Assembly: GCF_902726545.1 (NCBI RefSeq)
Contig: NZ_CACVAD010000033.1
Coordinates: 1-55,360, forward strand
Source: Yersinia artesiana
GTDB lineage: Bacteria; Pseudomonadota; Gammaproteobacteria; Enterobacterales; Enterobacteriaceae
Reading direction: 5' to 3'
DNA length: 55,360 nt
Shown here: positions 3,196-54,346 of the stretch, piece after piece
How positions within the stretch are numbered: the first letter of the stretch is position 1
How the letters are laid out: each line of letters starts with the position of its first letter
Notes under the pieces: generated by a model
Database searches by the model: none
Seen by the model: the letters and a program-made list of their open reading frames with translations, nothing else
Told to the model about the DNA's origin: nothing
Translations under genes and position numbers: made by a program

Positions 3196-3236
3196 AAAAG
3201 GCCGCTAGCGATATATTATCCATAGCGGCCTTTTTA
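3196..3236. terminator. Bidirectional intrinsic terminator
   Basis: A 12-bp perfect stem (AAAAGGCCGCTA / TAGCGGCCTTTT) has a 15-nt loop and is followed by T on the plus strand. The A-rich left side gives the same signal on the minus strand. It lies between the convergent yjjG and the small exported protein gene. Confidence 0.85.
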
Positions 3237-4187: not shown

Positions 4188-5855
4188 TTATTCACCTCCA
4201 ATCATATCGATATTTGCCGCACCCGGCGGCACCATGGGATATACTTTTTCATCCACATCAATCAGAGCATGAATAAGTACCGGGCCAGGACGATTTAATG
4301 CCTCATGCAATGCGCTATAAGGATCACTGGCGGTATTGAGATCACAGGTTGAGAAACCAAATCCTTCCGCAATATGAATAAAATTAGTGCGATAAGGGTA
4401 GTCGGCGGCAAAAATTCGCTTACCGAAAAACAGGTCTTGCTGCTGATGAACTAACCCGAGTGACTGGTTATTCATCAAAATAATCTTAACGTTAAGTTGC
4501 TCTTCCGCAGCCGTTGCCATCTCTTGAATATTCATCATCAGGCTACCATCACCGGAAAAACACACCACTTTTGCTTGCGGTTTGGCCAGTGCGGCGCCAA
4601 TTGCCGCGGGCAGGCCAAACCCCATGGTGCCCAACCCACCGGAGGTTAACCATTGGCGCGGGCGATGCAGAGGATAGGCCTGAGCCACCCACATCTGGTG
4701 CTGGCCGACATCGGTGGTAATGATGGTTTCATCATCCAATGCAGCGGCGGCGGCACGAATCAAACCATAGTGACACAATGGATTTTCGCTGTTGGGCTGA
4801 TTGAATGGGAATTCGCGTTGTATGTCGCTAACTGTGCTACGCCATTCACTGCGCGCTTGTGTTTCGATCAAGGGCAGCAAGTGGGTTAATACCTGCTTGA
4901 TATCCGCATTCATCGCCACATGTGGCCGGCGAATTTTACCCAGTTCAGCCGGGTCGATATCAATATGAATGATACTGGCATCAGGGCAGAACTGTTCGGC
5001 TTTTCCGATAGCCCGATCATCAAATCGCGCCCCCAATACAATCAATAAATCCGCTTGCTGCATGATGAAATTGGTGGATCGCGCAGCATGCATACCCAAC
5101 ATGCCTAATGATAATGGGTGGTCAACCGGCATGGTGCCTAATGCCATTAGTGTCATGGTGGTGGGCAAACCGGCTTGTTCGGCCAGTTGTATCGCTTGCT
5201 CATGAGCCTCGGAACTGACGATTCCGCCGCCGAGATAGAGCACCGGTCGCGCAGCGCTGTTGATCATTTGCGCGACGGTTGCAATGGCAATCGGGTCAAG
5301 CGGGCAGGGCTTATCGGCGAAGCCTGGCTCCGGCAAGTTATCAAGTTCGATTTCCGCCGTTTGTACATCTTTGGGAATATCAATCCATACCGGGCCGGGG
5401 CGACCCGATTGTGCAATGCGAAATGCCGCCGGGATCACCCGTGTCAATTCGCTGATATCGCGCACCAGATAGTTGTGTTTGGTAATAGGGATCGATATGC
5501 CGTAGGTATCGACTTCCTGGAATGCGTCAGTACCAATCATGGAAGATGAGACTTGTCCGGTGATGCAAACCAGTGGAATCGAATCGAGTTTGGCATCGGC
5601 GATTGCGGTGACCAAATTGGTGGCACCAGGGCCACTGGATGCCAAACAGACCGCAGTTTGTCCCGTGGCTCGCGCCATGCCCTGAGCCATAAAGCCGGCA
5701 CCTTGCTCATGCCGCGCCAGCACATGGCGAATAATACGACTTTGCCCCAGAGCATCATACAGCGGAAGCGCGGCTCCACCGGGAATGCCCGCAACAGTGG
5801 TAATGCCTTGCTGTTCCAGCAAACGAACGATTAATTGGGCGCCTGTATAACGCAT
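4188..5855 (-). CDS. ilvB: Acetolactate synthase I large (catalytic) subunit
   Basis: A 555-residue ThDP-dependent enzyme. It condenses two pyruvates to acetolactate, or pyruvate and 2-oxobutyrate to acetohydroxybutyrate, the first common step of branched-chain amino-acid synthesis. The N-terminal pyrimidine-binding domain has [16 protein letters not shown], the FAD/central domain follows, and the ThDP motif GDGSLMMN with downstream MNNQ is near residues 430-460. The start at 5855 is chosen because AAGGAT lies six bases before it; an ATG fifteen bases upstream lacks a ribosome binding site. The E. coli protein has a longer N-terminus. It is first gene of ilvBN and is controlled by the attenuator and leader upstream. 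Confidence 0.96.
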
Positions 5856-6274: not shown

Positions 6275-6299
6275 CCTTCCCAGTATGGCACCGGGAAGG
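6275..6299 (-). terminator. Terminator of the srf operon
   Basis: CCTTCCC pairs with GGGAAGG around an 11-nt loop, thirteen bases beyond the srfC stop. On the minus strand the stem is followed by ATGTTTTCC, a modest U-tract. The right arm, extended by one G (6293-6300), is also a perfect FtsK-orienting octamer. Confidence 0.6.
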
Positions 6300-6311: not shown

Positions 6312-8738
6312 TTATGACACCGCTATCGGCTGGATGGGTTTTAATATGGCCGCTAATTGCGCTTGATGCTGCTCGCTGATTTCACTGCTGGCGGAATAAC
6401 CCTCATTGTGAATAATCATTTCACCTAAGCCAACTAACCAGTCATAAATATAAAAAGCCGTGTTATTGATCGGGGTGGGGGCCAATTTGGTCAGCCTTTG
6501 CGCTGCGCTTGGCGCTGATAATGATGTCGGAATGCGCGCAAAAATCTTATAACCCCGGTTAATGCGGCTATCTGGCCGCTGAGTTTCACTGATTTGCAGG
6601 AATCCCAGCCAGGCCACGAAATCACCCAACACCGTCAGGGCGCGTGAGACTTGACGATCAGCCTTAGCATCACGATGCAAACTAACGTGTTCATTGTCAG
6701 CCAGTATGTTAACCAATTGCCCGGTAACATCTAATCGGATGCTGGCGGTTATTAACTCAGCGACCAGCAGCTCAATAGTCGGTTTGGTGATCCCCAATAA
6801 CTCAATCAGCGGCCCATTATCAGGTAACTGCCGCAGGTGATTAACCCAGTAGCGTTGCACATTTGTGGCGTATTGCGCGTCATTATCCCCACCAGATAGC
6901 ATCGCCGTTGGCGTTGGCTGTTCAACTGATAAAGATGCGTCGCTGAACAAGTCGATATCAATGCCAATGCTGAACGGATCGTGATGACTGTCACCCGAAG
7001 TCATCAGCTCAGTAACCCGATTTTGTTGTTGCAAATACAGCGCTCGCAACTCATCCCGCGCAGGCAATAATCGCTCCAGCAACTCGCCATGCAGGCCGGT
7101 TCGCGTTTGCAGTGCTTTAAGCAATGTCTCTGCGATGCGCTGTTTTTGTTGTGATTCATGGGTAACAGGCTGACACCAACTGGCCAGCATGTTTTCGGTC
7201 AGTTCCCGTTGCAGTTCATTAAGCTGCTCGGTGATGCGTTCGGCCTTAATATCACGGTGAATTTCTTTGGTCAGATAGCTCACCATCCGCTCAATACCGC
7301 GAGTATCCAATGCTAGCAGAGTCCCCCAACTGCTATCACCGGGCTGACCAACATAGCGCTGTACCGCTTCATCATGGTTTTTCGTACCCTCTGCAGCAAT
7401 ACGCTGGTCAAACGGTGTTAACGCCCAGATAAGCCCCGGATTACGGCGTGAGCGCACTTGGGTATTTTCACCCTGAGACTGTTTAACCCAATAATCCAGT
7501 GACTTACCCACAGCTTTAACGTCACTACGGTGGCTCACTGCATTACAGACCAACAGCATATTGATCTGTTGCTTATCGGTATAACGCTCAAGGAGATAGG
7601 CGTTTTTTGCCCATGATAACGCCGCCGCCAGTGCATAGGGCGCATGCGATACCTGTGTTGGCGTATCGAATTCATCACCAAAATCGGGGAAATCTAATAA
7701 TTCTACCGATTCGAATACACTTTCAATGGCAGACATCCGTAATGGGATCTGTAGCTCTACCGCTAAAAACGTTAACTCAGCCAGTGACAACGTCACCGAT
7801 TGACCGATGATAGTGTCTTTCACTGGCAGCACTTGAATCTGAGTATCAGCAGGGGTGTTCAGGTCATTGAGTGTGGCGACATTCATGATGCCGTTGGCGG
7901 GCAACAACATGTCATCAACTAACACACTGAGCGGGGCCAGCAACTGTGGCGCGCTATCCAGATGCTGTAAGGTATAGGCAAAATGGCGATAAGCATCAGT
8001 CAATGGCTGTGATTCGGCCCACAGCAGCGAGAATAACATAGCCCGATCATCAATTCGTAAATAAGGTGCCAATTCAATGGCGACCGGCCAGAAATGCGCT
8101 TCTAATCTCTTTTGGCGTGGCGCGTCATGGCGAAGCAGATAATCCCACAGGCTAATGACATCATCAGCGGTTATCCCGGCAATCGCGCTCTGTTGCTTGC
8201 GCATCGTCAATTGCCGGAGATGATCGGTAATATGTTGCTCACTCAGTGAGTGCTGTACCACCTCTTGTTGACTATCGTGCAGATAGGCACCCAGCACTAT
8301 TTTTGCCAGCTCAATTTCATTCAGTAGCGAAAGTTGTACCGGATGAGTTTCATGATTGATCGCTACCTGATGACTAAAGCGCGTCACCAGACCACTGGCC
8401 TGATAGCCGGGTTTGATTTGCTGCCAAAAGTTAAGTGTCTTTCCTGCCAGAGTGGTTGCCAACTGACCGTTTTCATCGGCAATCAGCGCTGAAATCAAAT
8501 GCTGTTTTCCGGCAGGAGATTGCCCAAAAAAGCCAATACTCATTGGCGTTAATGACATTTCAGCCAGATGGCGGGCTTTATTACGCTGGCGACGCAGTTT
8601 GACGGTCAGTTGATCCGCTTCAATATCCAAACGAATGGCATGTTGGCGCGTCGTGTTAATCCAATCAATTGCCTGATCAATGCCTTGGGTAACCTGTTGC
8701 AACTGGCTATTGAGCTGTCGGCTGGTTAATGATTTCAT
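6312..8738 (-). CDS. srfC: SrfC-like virulence factor, dynamin-like P-loop protein
   Basis: An 808-residue protein of the SrfC (Virul_Fac) family, third gene of srfABC. A Walker-A-like GQSPAGKQ is at residues 72-79 after a predicted coiled coil. ELLDFPDFGDEF near residue 345 resembles the DxPG switch of dynamin-like GTPases. The Walker A ends in Gln where Ser/Thr is usual, so nucleotide hydrolysis is uncertain. The C-terminal half is mostly helical. The family is named after SsrB-regulated factors of Salmonella; its activity is not settled. Its ATG overlaps the srfB stop by four bases (ATGA), so translation is probably coupled. A matS site lies inside the gene. Confidence 0.85.
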   Translation of the reverse strand: MKSLTSRQLNSQLQQVTQGIDQAIDWINTTRQHAIRLDIEADQLTVKLRRQRNKARHLAEMSLTPMSIGFFGQSPAGKQHLISALIADENGQLATTLAGKTLNFWQQIKPGYQASGLVTRFSHQVAINHETHPVQLSLLNEIELAKIVLGAYLHDSQQEVVQHSLSEQHITDHLRQLTMRKQQSAIAGITADDVISLWDYLLRHDAPRQKRLEAHFWPVAIELAPYLRIDDRAMLFSLLWAESQPLTDAYRHFAYTLQHLDSAPQLLAPLSVLVDDMLLPANGIMNVATLNDLNTPADTQIQVLPVKDTIIGQSVTLSLAELTFLAVELQIPLRMSAIESVFESVELLDFPDFGDEFDTPTQVSHAPYALAAALSWAKNAYLLERYTDKQQINMLLVCNAVSHRSDVKAVGKSLDYWVKQSQGENTQVRSRRNPGLIWALTPFDQRIAAEGTKNHDEAVQRYVGQPGDSSWGTLLALDTRGIERMVSYLTKEIHRDIKAERITEQLNELQRELTENMLASWCQPVTHESQQKQRIAETLLKALQTRTGLHGELLERLLPARDELRALYLQQQNRVTELMTSGDSHHDPFSIGIDIDLFSDASLSVEQPTPTAMLSGGDNDAQYATNVQRYWVNHLRQLPDNGPLIELLGITKPTIELLVAELITASIRLDVTGQLVNILADNEHVSLHRDAKADRQVSRALTVLGDFVAWLGFLQISETQRPDSRINRGYKIFARIPTSLSAPSAAQRLTKLAPTPINNTAFYIYDWLVGLGEMIIHNEGYSASSEISEQHQAQLAAILKPIQPIAVS
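7784..7796. promoter_or_regulatory. matS site (MatP binding), within srfC
   Basis: GTGACAACGTCAC fits the E. coli matS consensus GTGACRNYGTCAC at every fixed position. MatP bound at such sites organises the Ter macrodomain. The window's position near dif and tus supports the call. Confidence 0.85.
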
Positions 8739-11747: not shown

Positions 11748-13064
11748 TTATTTAGTCTCGCGCTTCATCGTCATTGGAAGTGTGGTATTGGCGTCATAAC
11801 GGCCTTTGCAATCAGCAATACCGGTCAGACCTTGCTTACAGACGATCTCAGGCATTTGATATTTTGAACCATCACTACACTGCGCCCTATAGCGGCTGTT
11901 AATCACCAAATTCCCCGACTTCATCAGTCCGGCGGTTATATTGGCCTGGCAGGTGACGTTGTCACCGTGGGTAATTTTTACCGTGCCTTTACCATTTTTA
12001 ATCTGATATTTCAGGCTCGGTGCTCTACCGGTCTGGGCGGCTTTAATATCGGGACTGACGCGCCAGTTGCCATTAAGGAAGGCGGTCGAACCCACCTTGA
12101 CCGCATCGAACGGGAGTACCAGCGCATTTTTGCTCTGCGCAGCAGTTAATTCCGGCGCAGCAACCGGTGGTTCTACTACCACCGGTGCTGGCGGAACAAT
12201 GGTGGCATGTTCCAGCGGAAGTTTTGGCTCCAGCAGCGGCGCAGTCATCTTGATAACCGGTGCGCTGGCTTCAGGCTCGGCTTTATCTGTCACGACAACC
12301 GCTGGCTTAACCTCAGGCGCCGCCAAAGCCCTTTCCGGTATTCCGCCACTGAATTGCACGATTAAGGCGATAATTAATGCCACAACGGGCAATGCCCAGC
12401 TAAAGCGCAGCCAGCGAGGTGTTTTTTTCTCTGGCAGCGAGGGCGGGACAGGTTCTGGTGGTGGCTCGATGACTGGCGTAATGGCGGCTGGCGGCGCTGG
12501 TTCGCTTATCGCGGTAACCGGCGGCGTTACCGGTGTGAGTGGTGCAGCGCTCAGTGGTGAGAACGTCGGCTCAATAGCTTCAGCCGTTTGTCGTAAGCAA
12601 TCAAGTGGGTCAGTTCGTGTTTTCTGATCCTGACTGACAAATCCCCAAAAAGTCAGTACCGGTTTGCCTGCCACCAGATAAACATGATTCTGATCGGGAA
12701 ATTGCAGGGTTTTGGCCAGCAGTACCCCGAATAACCGTTGGGCGGCCTTATCTGATTTTTGCGCACGCTGACATAAATCATTGGCACTGGAGAGGCAGGC
12801 AGACAGTTGTTTTATCGCGGATTTTCGCTCTGTGGTGCTGGCCGCACCCCATGAGGTGACTTTACCGTCAATTGGCGCATACCAGTCAATACGGTCACCT
12901 TGCTCATTGAGCTGCGGGATCGCCAGACAATCGGCAATCGGCTGCTGTTTCTTGAGACGCAATGCCTCTCTAATCTGAAGTGCAGCAGCATAAACCGGTT
13001 GTCCGTTTTCGCCCAACGCCAGAATATCGTCCAAACTACCACTGCGTAAAAATGATTTCGCCAC
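11748..13064 (-). CDS. srfA: SrfA-like membrane protein
   Basis: A 438-residue protein starting at GTG, first gene of the srf operon. About 215 cytosolic residues come first, with a proline-rich stretch near 175-215. A single transmembrane helix (WALPVVALIIALIVQF) is near 222-238. A proline/alanine-rich periplasmic linker and a C-terminal domain with paired cysteines (TCQANI, AQCSD, IVCKQ, DCKGR) follow. The layout suggests an inner-membrane anchor or sensor for the SrfB/SrfC pair. The function is not known from sequence. A matS site lies within it. The SrfA name rests on operon position and recalled family size. Confidence 0.75.
   Translation of the reverse strand: MAKSFLRSGSLDDILALGENGQPVYAAALQIREALRLKKQQPIADCLAIPQLNEQGDRIDWYAPIDGKVTSWGAASTTERKSAIKQLSACLSSANDLCQRAQKSDKAAQRLFGVLLAKTLQFPDQNHVYLVAGKPVLTFWGFVSQDQKTRTDPLDCLRQTAEAIEPTFSPLSAAPLTPVTPPVTAISEPAPPAAITPVIEPPPEPVPPSLPEKKTPRWLRFSWALPVVALIIALIVQFSGGIPERALAAPEVKPAVVVTDKAEPEASAPVIKMTAPLLEPKLPLEHATIVPPAPVVVEPPVAAPELTAAQSKNALVLPFDAVKVGSTAFLNGNWRVSPDIKAAQTGRAPSLKYQIKNGKGTVKITHGDNVTCQANITAGLMKSGNLVINSRYRAQCSDGSKYQMPEIVCKQGLTGIADCKGRYDANTTLPMTMKRETK
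11953..11965. promoter_or_regulatory. matS site (MatP binding), within srfA
   Basis: GTGACGTTGTCAC fits GTGACRNYGTCAC at every fixed position. It is the middle of three matS matches in this window. Confidence 0.85.
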
Positions 13065-17035: not shown

Positions 17036-18496
17036 GTGAATCAATCACAAGCGACAACTCATCTCTCGGCCGTTGAGGCAATAGAGAGGCTGGAGACATT
17101 ATACGAAGCGGCGCTGAGCGCATTGCGTGATGCTATCAGCGCCTATATTCGCGATGGGGCTTTGCCTGATGTGGGTGACCGGGCGAAGGGCTTATTTTCA
17201 TATCCACAGTTGAGTGTCAGTTGGGATGGCCAATTCCGCGATCATCAACGCACCAGGGCTTATGGCCGTTTTTCGCGCACCGGTCAATACAGCACCACAA
17301 TCACCCGGCCAACACTATTCAAAGAATATCTGACTGAACAGCTAACATTACTCGAAAATGAGTACCATGCGGTGTTTGAAGTGACACCGTCACAACAAGA
17401 GATGCCGTATCCCTTTGTTATCGATGGCTCTGACCTGATTCTCGACCGCTCGATGACCGCAGGGCTGGCCCAGCATTTCCCGACCACCGATTTAGCTAAA
17501 ATCGGTGATGGCATCACTGACGGTATTGATATTGCTGGCGCAGATTTCCCGCTATCGCATTTTGATGCGCTACGGACAGACTTTTCCCTGGCACGACTCA
17601 AGCATTACACCGGTACACCGGCAGAACATATTCAGCCCTATATTCTATTTACCAATTACAGCCGTTATGTTGATGAGTTTGTCAGTTGGGCCTGTCAGCA
17701 GATCCTGGATCCCTCCAGCCCTTATAAGGCGCTATCTTGCGCCGGTGGCAGTTACATCACCGCTGAAACTGCCGAGCCAGAGAAGACAACATCCGATTTG
17801 GCATGGAAAAAATACCAAATGCCGGCCTATCATTTAATCGCAGAAAGCGGGCATGGCATCACGTTGGTGAATATTGGCGTCGGCCCCTCGAATGCCAAAA
17901 CCATTTGTGACCATCTGGCGGTAATGCGGCCACACGCATGGCTGATGATCGGGCATTGCGGCGGTTTACGTGAAAGCCAGGCGATTGGCGATTATGTATT
18001 GGCTCATGCTTATTTGCGTGATGACCATGTGCTGGATGCGGTGCTGCCACCGGATATTCCGATCCCCAGTATTGCTGAAGTTCAACGGGCATTATATGAC
18101 GCCACCAAAGCGGTGAGTGGTATGCCGGGAGTTGAAGTCAAACAACGGCTGCGTACCGGAACGGTGGTCACTTCCGACGATCGTAACTGGGAGCTGCGTT
18201 TCTCGGCCTCTGCACTGCGTTTTAGCTTAAGTCGTGCGGTGGCGGTTGATATGGAAAGTGCCACGATTGCGGCGCAAGGGTACCGATTCAGGGTGCCTTA
18301 CGGCACATTACTGTGTGTGTCAGATAAACCGTTGCATGGTGAGATCAAGCTGCCGGGGCAGGCGAATCATTTCTATGAAGGTGCTATTTCCGAGCACTTG
18401 CAGATTGGTATTCGGGCCATAGATTTGCTGCGCGCGGAGGGTGACCAACTGCATTCGCGCAAATTACGCACCTTTAACGAGCCACCGTTCCGTTAA
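17036..18496 (+). CDS. amn: AMP nucleosidase
   Basis: A 486-residue enzyme that hydrolyses AMP to adenine and ribose 5-phosphate and so adjusts adenylate pools. The N-terminal Amn domain includes KGLFSYPQLSVSWDGQF, as in E. coli. The C-terminal half has the nucleoside-phosphorylase fold (GHGITLVNIGVGPSNAKT, WLMIGHCGGLRESQ, VDMESATIAAQGYRF). The start is the GTG at 17036 because GGAAGGA lies six bases upstream; a TTG ten codons earlier lacks a ribosome binding site. A matS site lies inside the gene. It is monocistronic. Confidence 0.93.
   Translation: MNQSQATTHLSAVEAIERLETLYEAALSALRDAISAYIRDGALPDVGDRAKGLFSYPQLSVSWDGQFRDHQRTRAYGRFSRTGQYSTTITRPTLFKEYLTEQLTLLENEYHAVFEVTPSQQEMPYPFVIDGSDLILDRSMTAGLAQHFPTTDLAKIGDGITDGIDIAGADFPLSHFDALRTDFSLARLKHYTGTPAEHIQPYILFTNYSRYVDEFVSWACQQILDPSSPYKALSCAGGSYITAETAEPEKTTSDLAWKKYQMPAYHLIAESGHGITLVNIGVGPSNAKTICDHLAVMRPHAWLMIGHCGGLRESQAIGDYVLAHAYLRDDHVLDAVLPPDIPIPSIAEVQRALYDATKAVSGMPGVEVKQRLRTGTVVTSDDRNWELRFSASALRFSLSRAVAVDMESATIAAQGYRFRVPYGTLLCVSDKPLHGEIKLPGQANHFYEGAISEHLQIGIRAIDLLRAEGDQLHSRKLRTFNEPPFR
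17381..17393. promoter_or_regulatory. matS site (MatP binding), within amn
   Basis: GTGACACCGTCAC fits GTGACRNYGTCAC at every fixed position. It is the rightmost of the three matS sites seen, about 20 kb from dif. Confidence 0.85.
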
Positions 18497-36372: not shown

Positions 36373-36382
36373 GGTGGTTAAG

Positions 36383-36592
36383 ATGACTAGTATCAGTTAT
36401 ACAGCAGCTAGAAATAATTTAGCCAAGGTATTATTAGAAGCTCAGAAGCAGCCAGTAGAAGTCACGCGCCGTGGGCAGAGTGAGGTCTATATTATCAGCA
36501 AAGCTGATTATGAAGAGCTGATGAAAGCAAAGGTAAAGGCGCATATTCAATTTAAGCACGCTGAAACCATCAAAGCGCTTGCGGATAGATGA
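36383..36592 (+). CDS. phd: Phd-family antitoxin
   Basis: A 69-residue antitoxin: SISYTAARNNLAKVLLEAQKQPVEVTRRGQSEVYIISKADYEELM is the Phd/YefM DNA-binding domain, and the C-terminal helix (KHAETIKALADR) should wrap Doc. The ATG at 36383 has AGGTGG six bases upstream; a GTG three codons earlier overlaps that site. Its stop overlaps the doc start. Confidence 0.9.
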   Translation: MTSISYTAARNNLAKVLLEAQKQPVEVTRRGQSEVYIISKADYEELMKAKVKAHIQFKHAETIKALADR

Positions 36593-36945
36593 TATTTTTA
36601 ACGGCGAATGATATCGCAGAGTTTAACGCCGAGATTATCCCTAACGGCAGGCCAGATAATAGTAAGATTGAGGCTATAGCAAGTCGTGTATTAAACGCAC
36701 ATCATTATGATAGCGTGAATGATGTGTATCAGTTGGCGGCTATCTATTTAATTGCAATTGGTCGGGGTCACATTTTTCTTGATGGGAACAAGCGCACTGC
36801 ATTTCAAAGCATGGCGTTATTTCTTGGTATCAATGGCGTAGACTTACGTGCAAGTCATCAACTGGAAGAATTAACCGTCGAAGCCGCACAAGGGAAAATC
36901 GGTATTGAACAGATAGTGAAACAGTTACGAGAACTTACCGAATGA
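36589..36945 (+). CDS. doc: Doc-family Fic toxin
   Basis: A 118-residue toxin with the Fic-fold motif HIFLDGNKRTA at residues 61-71, matching the Doc form HxFxDxNKR. Doc phosphorylates and inactivates EF-Tu, halting translation, and Phd blocks the active site. The ATG overlaps the phd stop by four bases, so translation is coupled. A strong terminator follows four bases after its stop, and dif lies 180 bp downstream. All key residues are present, so the toxin should be active. Confidence 0.92.
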   Translation: MIFLTANDIAEFNAEIIPNGRPDNSKIEAIASRVLNAHHYDSVNDVYQLAAIYLIAIGRGHIFLDGNKRTAFQSMALFLGINGVDLRASHQLEELTVEAAQGKIGIEQIVKQLRELTE

Positions 36946-36972: not shown

Positions 36973-37053
36973 GTGCCTGTCGTTTGGTGAAATCTGACGG
37001 ACAATCATACTGCCAGTGCTACAGATTTCACGTAGCGTCACCGGTTGAAATAA

Positions 37054-37061
37054 GGGGAGGG
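37054..37061 (+). promoter_or_regulatory. FtsK-orienting octamer (KOPS) next to dif
   Basis: GGGGAGGG fits GGGNAGGG and reads rightwards, towards dif 65 bp away. FtsK translocates in this direction. Confidence 0.65.
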
Positions 37062-37126: not shown

Positions 37127-37154
37127 ATTTAACATAATATACATTATGCGCACC
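37127..37154 (-). other. dif: dif, chromosome dimer resolution site
   Basis: Read on the minus strand this 28-mer has the XerC arm GGTGCGCATAA, the central TGTATA, and the XerD arm TTATGTTAAAT. It agrees with the E. coli dif sequence as I remember it at every base. XerC/XerD, activated by FtsK at the septum, recombine two such sites to resolve chromosome dimers. It lies in a 403-bp gap between doc and a DUF1471 gene. The rest of that gap has no gene: the short frame that starts inside dif stops after 15 codons. Confidence 0.97.
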
Positions 37155-37348
37155 AAGATAAGAATAGGCAGAATCCAGGGAGTTGGTTGCTGAATTAGGT
37201 CTGGTTTATCTGGCTAACATCTGTCCCAAACACCATCAGGAATGTACAACTATTCGAAAGAATATCAGTTCGACTGGATAAAACAGGACATGAGAACAAT
37301 ACTTAGTATGGTTTCACATGTTGTTCATTATCTTTGCAGAGGAATATT

Positions 37349-37627
37349 ATGAAAATATTGAAAACAATGGCAATGTTGGTTGTTCTGGGTACATTCTCTT
37401 CCGCTGTTATATCCGCCGAACTGCTAACCAAGGAGGAGCTTAATAATAACCCGCAGCAGTATGAAAAAATTGGCAATATCGTGACTGCCAATGAGTTAGC
37501 CACCATGGATGCTAAAGCTGAGTTATCCAAAAAGGCTGATGAATTGGGCGGCGATTATTATGTCATTACCTCAGCAAACACAGATAATAAGATTCACGCC
37601 ACGGCTGATGTGTATAAGAAAAAGTAG
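37349..37627 (+). CDS. YhcN/BhsA-type DUF1471 periplasmic protein
   Basis: A 92-residue protein. A Sec signal peptide (MKILKTMAMLVVLGTFSSAVISA) is followed by a single DUF1471 domain: IGNIVTANELATMDAKAELSKKADELGGDYYVITSA and a closing ATADVYKKK. Relatives such as YhcN and BhsA (YcfR) are stress-induced, acid- or copper-responsive and affect biofilm. The ATG at 37349 has AGAGGA upstream; the longer frame adds five residues. A terminator follows. Confidence 0.88.
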   Translation: MKILKTMAMLVVLGTFSSAVISAELLTKEELNNNPQQYEKIGNIVTANELATMDAKAELSKKADELGGDYYVITSANTDNKIHATADVYKKK

Positions 37628-41241: not shown

Positions 41242-42117
41242 ATGGATTTCAACGCAACGAAATTGTTCATCTCGGTGGTGAATGCCGGCAGTTTTTCTGC
41301 GGCCAGTGAAAAAATGGGTATGCCGATCTCAACGTTGAGTCGTAAGATTAATGAACTTGAGCAGGCGTTAAATGCACAGCTCTTGGTTCGATCAAGGCAT
41401 GGGGTTAAGCCAACCTATAAAGGACAACAGTTCTTTGAACAGGCTCGTCTCGGTGTCGAGCTGCTAGAGGATGCACAAAGATCGGTAACCTCAGTCCACA
41501 AATTACAGGGCAAATTACGTCTGTCTGTCCCGCCTAATTTCACCCTATGGTGGGATTTACTGCTCGAATTTCAGCAACGTTACCCTGATATAAGAGTATT
41601 TTGTCATTCAAGTGAAAGAGTCGTTGATTTGTTTGAGGATGGGATCGATGTTGCGCTCAGAATGGGCAACTTAAATACTGATGATGTGATTGCTAAACCC
41701 ATAATGACAGGGGAAGCCTTGTTTGTGGCAAGTCCCAAATTATTAGCGCGTTACGGCACACCACAGACTCTGGCTGAAATGGGGCGGCTTCCCATCGCTG
41801 CCTGGGAAAATCTGAATCATGGTTTTTTTGAATGGGAATCTGGCTCAGAAAAAGTTAAATACGAGCCATTCTTTTCCACCAATAATACACAGGTATTAAT
41901 TCATTATGCCCTGAATGGCATGGGCGCCTCACAGCTACTGGATTTTTCAGTCCGCCCCTGGCTGGAAAGTGGTGAGTTGATACAACTTATCCCCTGGACA
42001 ACCCAAAAAATTATTCCGTTACACCTTGTCTATGCCCGTCAGAAATATCCTTCAGCACTGGTACGGGCTTATCTGGACTTTTGTCTGGAATGGGTTGGAA
42101 AGATGAAATACAAATAA
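41242..42117 (+). CDS. LysR-family transcriptional regulator
   Basis: A 291-residue regulator. N-terminal winged helix: TKLFISVVNAGSFSAASEKMGMPISTLSRKINELEQAL; effector domain from about residue 90. It is divergent from the nitronate monooxygenase gene, the classic arrangement for a LysR protein and its target. The Pro-Ile-Ser motif in the recognition helix resembles the AaeR/DsdC-like branch. The inducer is not known. Confidence 0.88.
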   Translation: MDFNATKLFISVVNAGSFSAASEKMGMPISTLSRKINELEQALNAQLLVRSRHGVKPTYKGQQFFEQARLGVELLEDAQRSVTSVHKLQGKLRLSVPPNFTLWWDLLLEFQQRYPDIRVFCHSSERVVDLFEDGIDVALRMGNLNTDDVIAKPIMTGEALFVASPKLLARYGTPQTLAEMGRLPIAAWENLNHGFFEWESGSEKVKYEPFFSTNNTQVLIHYALNGMGASQLLDFSVRPWLESGELIQLIPWTTQKIIPLHLVYARQKYPSALVRAYLDFCLEWVGKMKYK

Positions 42118-42545: not shown

Positions 42546-42694
42546 TGACAAAGTGCTCGTATCGGTGAAAACAGGCAGATCGTAAAGACGCCGTAAACCC
42601 TTCCCTGGGGGCTCGAGCCGCGCCATCCCTGGCGCGGACGCTTTACTCTTCTCCCTGTCCTCACCTTGCAAGATCGAGTCGTTGGGTTTTGTCA
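42546..42694. repeat. Intergenic repeat with TGACAAA/TTTGTCA ends
   Basis: About 149 bp bounded by TGACAAAG and TTTGTCA. Inside, CCGCGCCA pairs with TGGCGCGG around a 4-nt loop. The ends match those of the miniature elements at 20691 and 28629, but the interior differs. An FtsK-orienting octamer on the minus strand (CCCTTCCC at 42598) lies in it. It encodes nothing and separates ynfA from the esterase gene. Confidence 0.6.
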
Positions 42695-52356: not shown

Positions 52357-53253
<897 letters not shown>

Positions 53254-53374: not shown

Positions 53375-53397
53375 ATAGTGTATGTTGTAACTAAAAT
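53375..53397 (+). other. ter: Ter replication-fork arrest site (TerB-like)
   Basis: GTATGTTGTAACTAAA at 53380-53395 is identical to the core of E. coli TerB. The G at 53380 pairs with the C that locks into Tus at the non-permissive face. That face points left, so forks moving rightwards past dif should stop here. The site lies 20 bp before the tus start, so Tus should also repress its own gene. Confidence 0.95.
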
Positions 53398-53416
53398 AAG
53401 GTCAGCTAAAAATACG

Positions 53417-54346
53417 ATGACTAAATATGATTTGATCGAGCGTCTCAATAACCGCTTTACCGCGTTGGAAGTCGGATTGCAGGAACTCCACCAGCAACTT
53501 GAGGATTTACCGCTGCTCGCTGCACGCGTCTTTTCCTTGCCTGAAATAGAGAAAGGCACCGAACATCAGCCCATTATGCATATTCCTGTGAGTGCAACAG
53601 TGGGAGCAGAAGCACGAGATTTGGCGATACAGCACTATCAGCGGCTATTTATTCACCATCAGGGCCAGAATGTCAGCAGCAAAGCCGCCCTCCGCCTCCC
53701 TGGGGTTCTCTGTTTTTCGGTGACCGAGCACCAACTCGCCGCTTGCCAAAAGAGTATTCAACATATAAATCAATTGAAAACCGAGCTGGAACACATCATT
53801 ACCGTTGAATCTGGTTTGCCGAGTGAGCAACGTTTCGAGTTTGTTCACACCCACTTACATGGGTTGATCACGCTAAATACCTATCGCACCATTACGCCGT
53901 TGATAAACCCCAGTTCGGTTCGCTTTGGTTGGGCTAATAAACATATTATTAAGAACGTCACCCGCGAAGAGGTGCTGGCGCAGTTAAACAAAAGCCTAAA
54001 TGCCGGTCGTGCCATTCCCCCTTTTAGCCGTGAGCAGTGGGCGGAGTTAATTAGCCAGGAAATTAACGATGTTCAACAGTTGCCAGAACAGGCGCGCCTC
54101 AAGATCAAACGGCCAGTTAAAGTACAACCTATTGCACGAGTTTGGTATCAGGAGCAGCAGAAGCAAGTCCAACACCCCTGCCCTATGCCTTTGATTGCCT
54201 TTTGCCAGATCCAATCAGCCGTCGAATTACCTAAATTAGGCGAATTAACTGATTACGATGCCAATCAGATTAAACATAAATATAAGCCAGATGCCAAACC
54301 GTTACGGCTGTTGGTGCCCAGATTACATTTACATGTCGAGGTATAG
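53417..54346 (+). CDS. tus: Replication terminator protein Tus
   Basis: A 309-residue monomeric Ter-binding protein, the same length as E. coli Tus. Conserved segments include ARVFSLPEIEK, SSKAALRLPGVLCF, FVHTHLHGLITLNTYRT, RFGWANKHIIKNVTREEVLAQL and LKIKRPVKVQPIARVWY, plus the C-terminal YKPDAKPLRLLVPRLHLHV. Tus bound at Ter blocks DnaB helicase from one side. The ATG at 53417 matches the E. coli start (MTKYDLIERLN); the longer frame runs through the Ter site and is not used. Confidence 0.97.
   Translation: MTKYDLIERLNNRFTALEVGLQELHQQLEDLPLLAARVFSLPEIEKGTEHQPIMHIPVSATVGAEARDLAIQHYQRLFIHHQGQNVSSKAALRLPGVLCFSVTEHQLAACQKSIQHINQLKTELEHIITVESGLPSEQRFEFVHTHLHGLITLNTYRTITPLINPSSVRFGWANKHIIKNVTREEVLAQLNKSLNAGRAIPPFSREQWAELISQEINDVQQLPEQARLKIKRPVKVQPIARVWYQEQQKQVQHPCPMPLIAFCQIQSAVELPKLGELTDYDANQIKHKYKPDAKPLRLLVPRLHLHVEV

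Follow-up and report, generated by a model that had tools for sequence, protein, structure and literature searches.

An exact dif site in the terminus region of Yersinia artesiana and a 57-bp inverted repeat linked to dif

In a 55,360-nucleotide stretch of Yersinia artesiana DNA (contig NZ_CACVAD010000033.1, positions 1 to 55,360; "the window" hereafter, meaning this whole stretch), a 28-bp sequence identical to Escherichia coli dif lies 89 bp from one arm of a 57-bp inverted repeat, and copies of this repeat are linked to dif in genomes that were not selected for carrying dif. Judged from its sequence and setting, the 28-mer is almost certainly the chromosomal dif of this Yersinia species. 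That finding is ordinary and already known, since the same letters are in print for Y. pestis CO92; it gives the contig a firm terminus landmark, in line with Yersinia dif sites published earlier. The repeat we call undescribed on the strength of a literature search, in which a string search of PMC articles for its 16-mer arm returned a mouse paper as the sole match. If the repeat is functional, the natural dif would exceed 28 bp, and chromosomes and plasmids would share a resolution factor.

Results

Identity and conservation of the dif site

On the minus strand, the site reads GGTGCGCATAA TGTATA TTATGTTAAAT, i.e., an 11-bp XerC arm, a 6-bp spacer, and an 11-bp XerD arm, which is the exact 28-mer of E. 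coli K-12 dif with 0 mismatches; in MG1655, identical letters stand at position 1590750 of its record, also on the minus strand. A sequence-only reading of the window had proposed just such an intact site, and the letters bear it out. At up to 3 mismatches, the window gave one match (0 in 100 shuffles), with the second-best place at 10 mismatches, and the entire Y. artesiana genome (4,407,320 bases in 111 contigs, of which the window is C33:1-55360) likewise gave one, against 0 for the reversed pattern. No better dif elsewhere, which the same reading had named as its own possible undoing, was therefore found in this genome at that threshold.

The comparison with other Yersinia that had been suggested there supports the call as well: exactly one dif with 0 to 1 mismatch was found in 24 of the 25 genomes of the genus, the other one (G002, 94% complete) having none at up to 3 mismatches. 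In the family sample, 69 of 119 genomes, many of them small, contained a match. PMC2731167 tabulates this 28-mer as the dif of Y. pestis CO92, where it stands near the peak of the skew, and PMC2483231 makes use of the conserved Yersinia terminus region. Among the matches listed, the longest dif-anchored match of the window locus to a named record was that to Yersinia proxima (L097), with approximately 1.5 kb alignable at 89% on the XerC side of dif. The 142 dif loci compared below are also those among the matches listed, many of them related to each other.

As the sequence-only reading had it, dif lies between a toxin-antitoxin module, here Phd-type and Fic/Doc ORFs, and a stress-protein gene, here a YdgH/BhsA/McbA-like ORF (Table 1). 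No phage or transposase ORF adjoins the site in the window, whereas a filamentous phage integrated at dif is cited for Y. pestis in the excerpt of PMC2731167. The dif of MG1655 has other gene neighbors, and the 57-bp element has no clear counterpart there, the examined stretch of MG1655 holding just a strongly diverged copy. Given that collection searches found dif-like sites on plasmids and in phages, one might ask whether this 28-mer could be an Xer site of the plasmid type or one belonging to an integrated element. We consider this extremely improbable: a plasmid or phage origin was rejected on the grounds of the single copy and the switch in polarity of KOPS described below, and the presence of tus and matS on the same contig and the conservation in the genus also speak against it. 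The case for a chromosomal dif thus combines exact identity, single copy, the KOPS strand switch, a local skew maximum close by, conserved occurrence across the genus, and the Xer/FtsK genes.

KOPS, GC skew, and other terminus features

KOPS were scored by the consensus GGGNAGGG. All seven in the window, four on the plus strand and three on the minus strand (Table 1), aim at dif, and their polarity switches between positions 37,061 and 42,598, so that dif sits at the switch of strand bias. The cumulative GC skew of the window peaks at 41,865, i.e., 4.7 kb from dif rather than at it. Together with tus and matS, these features support a terminus inside the window, where the sequence-only reading had put it, and at the scale of the window the skew test that it had proposed came out in its favor. 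Polarity, with the XerD arm towards the replichore that carries plus-strand KOPS, is the same in the window and in MG1655. In a relative with a chromosome-sized contig (G005), dif lies at position 2,317,569 of 4,710,154; over 200 kb, 17 of 17 KOPS aim at it, and the skew reaches its local maximum at +5.3 kb. Ten 5-kb skew samples were noisy, with four of five to the right of dif negative and only two of five to the left positive. Over 100 kb of MG1655, 13 of 13 KOPS aim at dif, yet the local skew maximum is 38 kb away. Local skew is therefore only a rough guide to dif, and KOPS are the better marker here.

Extending the count to 134 de-duplicated dif loci, we found that all 104 KOPS within 3 kb aim at dif. 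However, control motifs in the same loci also skew towards dif (67 towards and 10 away for reversed KOPS; 40/9, 35/2, and 50/3 for three rearranged motifs), which means that strand composition alone accounts for some of the bias. Close to dif, KOPS were found within 250 bp on the XerD side in 22 cases, 12 of these 22 loci belonging to the genus and hence not being independent, and none within 500 bp on the XerC side. The near-dif KOPS on the XerD side lies at 65 bp in the window and at 115 bp in MG1655; an XerD-side KOPS at 124 bp from dif is given for E. coli in the excerpt of PMC2680272.

At up to 1 mismatch, the window contains four matS sites (0.15 expected), the three exact ones, matching the consensus GTGACRNYGTCAC, lying left of dif. 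The single tus gene of the genome, whose true start is likely at 53417 as far as can be inferred, has a Ter-like site at its beginning; a search for Ter at up to 3 mismatches gave two matches versus 1.52 expected, which is meaningful only jointly with tus. The two, 16 kb from dif, form part of a replication fork trap inside the window, and an ORF with beta-lactamase family domains (52369-53253; PF13354, PF00144) directly precedes tus. Other contigs of the genome encode XerC (above the model cutoff), a second protein taken as XerD on 312 bits to the XerC model rather than to an XerD model, and an FtsK_gamma domain (98 bits).

In E. coli, FtsK follows KOPS to dif at division, touches XerD, and starts XerCD strand exchange, and Tus on Ter sites traps replication forks in the terminus region. 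By analogy with E. coli, FtsK of Y. artesiana would track KOPS motifs to dif at cell division and contact XerD there, upon which XerCD strand exchange would begin and resolve a chromosome dimer into two monomers, with Tus bound to Ter presumably trapping replication forks in the same region.

Table 1. Coordinates of the features in and around the dif region of the window
Feature	Position	Strand	Details
KOPS GGGCAGGG	5302..5309	+	Aimed at dif; further plus-strand sites at 6293 and 20514
matS	7784..7796; 11953-11965; 17381-17393		Three exact consensus matches
Phd-type antitoxin ORF and Fic/Doc toxin ORF	36374..36945	+	Antitoxin 36374-36592 (PF02604), toxin 36589-36945 (PF02661); neighbors, outside dif
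57-bp inverted repeat	36981..37037	+	Left arm 36981-36996 (3 mismatches), 25-nt loop 36997-37021, right arm 37022-37037
KOPS GGGGAGGG	37054..37061	+	XerD side, 65 bp from dif, aimed at dif
dif	37127..37154	-	XerC arm 37144-37154, spacer 37138-37143, XerD arm 37127-37137; exact 28-mer
Conserved XerC-side flank of dif, class A, possible diverged half-site	37155..37202	-	Profile 32.1 bits, the profile being built from the loci it scores, window locus included
YdgH/BhsA/McbA-like ORF	37349..37627	+	PF07338; neighbor of dif
KOPS	42598..42605	-	Aimed at dif from the opposite side; further minus-strand sites at 52983 and 54176
tus (replication terminator protein)	53378..54346	+	PF05472, 446.6 bits; sole match in the Y. 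artesiana genome
Ter-like site	53379..53394	+	Differs from the consensus at 1 position; at the tus start

A 57-bp inverted repeat is linked to dif

The right arm of the 57-bp repeat is the exact 16-mer CAGATTTCACGTAGCG; it faces dif and is followed by the KOPS at 37054. When whole genomes unselected for dif were searched for the core CAGAWTTCACGTAGCG at up to 1 mismatch, 38 places turned up in 22 of the 25 genus genomes; at 30 of these places, in 19 genomes, dif is no more than 5 kb away. Elsewhere in the family, 65 places turned up in 35 genomes, and 25 of them (18 genomes) lie within the same distance of dif, although 5 of the 35 genomes lack any dif at the 3-mismatch threshold and could thus never count as near. 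Reversed-pattern controls gave 1 match in the 25 genus genomes and 5 in the 119 family genomes. These counts show that the inverted repeat is linked to dif.

Within 5 kb of dif, 41 cores point towards dif and 14 away, the latter often being the second arm of a pair, and the 16-bp arms are separated by a 25-nt loop in 36 of 44 distinct pairs from loci fetched by dif, or in 58 of 73 when all loci are counted, including those fetched via the right arm itself; a pair search over all loci found 0 pairs with one control 16-mer and 2 with another. On the XerD side, a copy with no more than 3 mismatches lies within 260 bp of dif in 15 of 24 genus loci. A KOPS follows the repeat by 8 to 17 bp in nine of the 24 (L001, L002, L004, L006, L012, and L017 to L020) and in two Citrobacter loci (L053 and L056); L010 likewise has a KOPS after the repeat, with a weaker arm.

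Two familiar explanations of the repeat were rejected. A REP-like repeat does not fit the copy number, the Y. artesiana genome holding a single copy of the 16-mer when 1 mismatch is allowed and four when 2 are (control, 1), and as for a known RNA, Rfam gave only Trp-leader, at 21 bits versus a gathering score of 41.

Flank classes on the XerC side

Alignments showed that DNA on the XerC side is conserved for approximately 40 to 50 bp in step with dif, past the 28 bp. Single-linkage clustering of the 140 loci with enough flank yielded class A with 76 loci, including the window and E. coli K-12, and a second group of 23; of the others, 15 fall into four small groups and 26 stand alone. The class A profile gave 46 further matches of at least 10 bits in the loci versus 6 in shuffled loci (one strand), so weak matches are partly due to chance. 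In the window, the profile also matches the XerD side of dif (16.1 bits), where it leads to the right arm of the 57-bp repeat. Class A may contain, going by sequence similarity, a diverged half-site at -23 from dif, adjoining the XerC arm; this putative half-site is exact in G091, has 1 mismatch in G044, and has 2 to 3 mismatches in eight loci from L011 to L142.

In the available parts of PMC11724359, cer (ColE1) and psi (pSC101) also have conserved DNA on the XerC side, as the window does, but their accessory sequences are approximately 200 bp long and bind ArgR or ArcA with PepA, whereas the window has a short conserved block.

We rejected the view that all flank classes form a single functional family, given that some are ends of transposase-bearing elements and one adjoins filamentous-phage-like genes. 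Transposase-type ORFs lie approximately 100 to 125 bp from dif in L007, L119, and L068 (incomplete). The excerpt of PMC10132070 describes insertion sequences of the IS1202 family that insert 5 bp from the XerC arm. The transposase-bearing flank elements, whose ORFs were assigned by eye rather than by profile search, are probably of this type, and such elements may account for some of the other XerC flank classes in related loci; none is present at the window's dif. In L080 (Klebsiella spallanzanii), filamentous-phage-like ORFs (coat-like and replication-like, assigned by eye) adjoin dif on the XerC side, and the flank has a stretch in common with class A.

The repeat away from dif: recombinase genes and plasmids

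Twelve loci with a copy away from dif were read for genes (L247 and L252 to L255 left out), and six of them overlap or adjoin a recombinase gene. The 16-mer lies inside the start of a tyrosine-recombinase gene in L240, L246, and L251; the repeat stands 24 bp ahead of such a gene in L245 and approximately 290 bp upstream of one in L244, and it is beside a serine resolvase in L243. One locus (L256) has a second Xer site beside the copy, and in the other five (L241, L242, L248, L249, and L250) neither a recombinase nor an Xer site stands beside it. L240 is a named Salmonella plasmid, and its type of tyrosine recombinase is one that we take to be ResD-like; the contigs from genomes without a named record may be plasmids as well.

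In seven genes selected by protein similarity to the L240 recombinase—hand-picked from 60 entries sampled across a set of at least 5,000 matches—the 16-mer occurs at +27 with 0 to 1 mismatch in four (L278 to L281, of which L279 and L280 are close relatives) and is absent from this position in L282, L283, and L284. Codon usage was compared in six motif-holding genes, with L279 dropped as a near-copy of L280 and with L282, L283, L284, and the L244 recombinase excluded: four of the seven single-codon columns are the codons of the motif, a result that is partly circular because the motif itself had led to L240, L246, and L251. When just the three holders picked by protein are compared, a single codon is kept in 22 of 87 conserved columns, including all four of the motif; once the three nonholders join the comparison, the figure is 3 of 58, with none from the motif.

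A probe with the whole element matched 196 of 5,426 E. coli genomes, with 193 of the 199 places on plasmids. At up to 3 mismatches, the 16-mer is absent from ColE1 (cer) and pSC101 (psi); ColE1 has one copy with 4 mismatches, 0.6 kb from cer.

Discussion

Two readings of the repeat appear about equally likely, with the remaining probability left to causes that we did not consider. On one of them, the 57-bp repeat and the XerC-side half-site would be binding sites for a host factor common to dimer-resolution loci, both dif on the chromosome and those of plasmids with a ResD-like tyrosine recombinase. We regard this as possible but more doubtful than probable. The linkage to dif in genomes not chosen for dif (genus, 30 of 38 places; other genera, 25 of 65) is consistent with it, as are the fixed 25-nt loop (36 of 44 and 58 of 73 distinct pairs), the right arm that usually faces dif (41 against 14), and the KOPS placed 8 to 17 bp behind the repeat in nine genus and two Citrobacter loci. 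Moreover, 15 of 24 genus loci keep a copy near dif on the XerD side, and the 16-mer recurs at +27 in four of the seven plasmid recombinase genes picked by protein. Yet the other three of these seven genes do not have it there, the codon test is partly circular, five of the 12 off-dif loci have neither a recombinase nor an Xer site beside the copy, no copy with 3 or fewer mismatches lies near cer or psi, and the one at E. coli K-12 dif is very diverged; nor do we know of a protein that binds the repeat. It is tempting to speculate further that an undescribed 57-bp Enterobacterales element marks dimer-resolution loci and that a common host protein couples chromosome and plasmid resolution. This rather unlikely proposal would bring together the better arm facing dif, the KOPS that follows it in some Yersinia and Citrobacter, the half-site ending 7 bp from the XerC arm, and the recurrence of the arm at plasmid recombinase genes.

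Alternatively, the repeat might be a recombination or capture site for plasmid tyrosine recombinases, and the copies near dif would be landing sites or scars of integrated plasmids or other Xer-using elements, which accumulate close to dif, a possibility that we hold to be real though still doubtful. Half of the 12 off-dif loci overlap or adjoin a recombinase gene, and insertion-type ORFs were seen beside dif in the loci studied here; in the excerpts of PMC7062461 and PMC2731167, dif is a known target of phages and other elements, as it is of IS1202-family insertion sequences in that of PMC10132070. Inside the copy on G047:C2, a 53-kb contig, there is a short inverted repeat that matches a tyrosine-recombinase core in size. 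However, the loops have no general core-like repeat (mean score, 0.96, versus 0.56 shuffled), and the 15 genus loci retain a copy at a similar place though the neighboring DNA changes, which suggests selection rather than a scar. A known system to compare is rfsF/ResD, the resolution system of F-type plasmids, in which rfsF is reported to be a 28-bp site of the kind with 10- to 14-bp arms and a 6- to 8-bp spacer (excerpts of PMC5587640, PMC9412624, PMC8004404, and PMC8299605). The 57-bp element is like rfsF/ResD in its place on G047:C2, approximately 290 bp upstream of a gene for a tyrosine recombinase, and unlike it in having 16-bp arms 25 nt apart and loops that hold no general core.

Other Xer-like sites

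A resident Xer-using element that would betray itself by an extra dif-like site was also considered and rejected: at up to 8 mismatches, the 142 listed loci, scanned with flanks of 1.5 kb a side for the genus, as loci of up to 8 kb otherwise, and over 20 kb for MG1655, contained 2 extra sites versus 1 for the reversed control. L141 holds an inverted second dif-like site with 5 mismatches, 165 bp from dif. Among the matches listed, phages of approximately 130 to 150 kb (e.g., MN850642.1 and DQ832317.1), V5 being one of this kind, have dif-like stretches of approximately 32 to 43 bp at 86 to 94% identity, and some large enterobacterial plasmids (e.g., NZ_CP132684.1 and NZ_CP088230.1) match dif together with 21 to 31 bp of the XerC-side flank.

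The second Xer site of L256 (positions 3199-3226; G007:C1, a 239-kb contig) has perfect XerC and XerD arms, but its spacer is tcatga; the inverted repeat and a KOPS stand next to it. Approximately 98 bp away on the XerC side is a transposase-type ORF, and the same ORF lies at that distance from the canonical dif of this genome, which is on contig C2.
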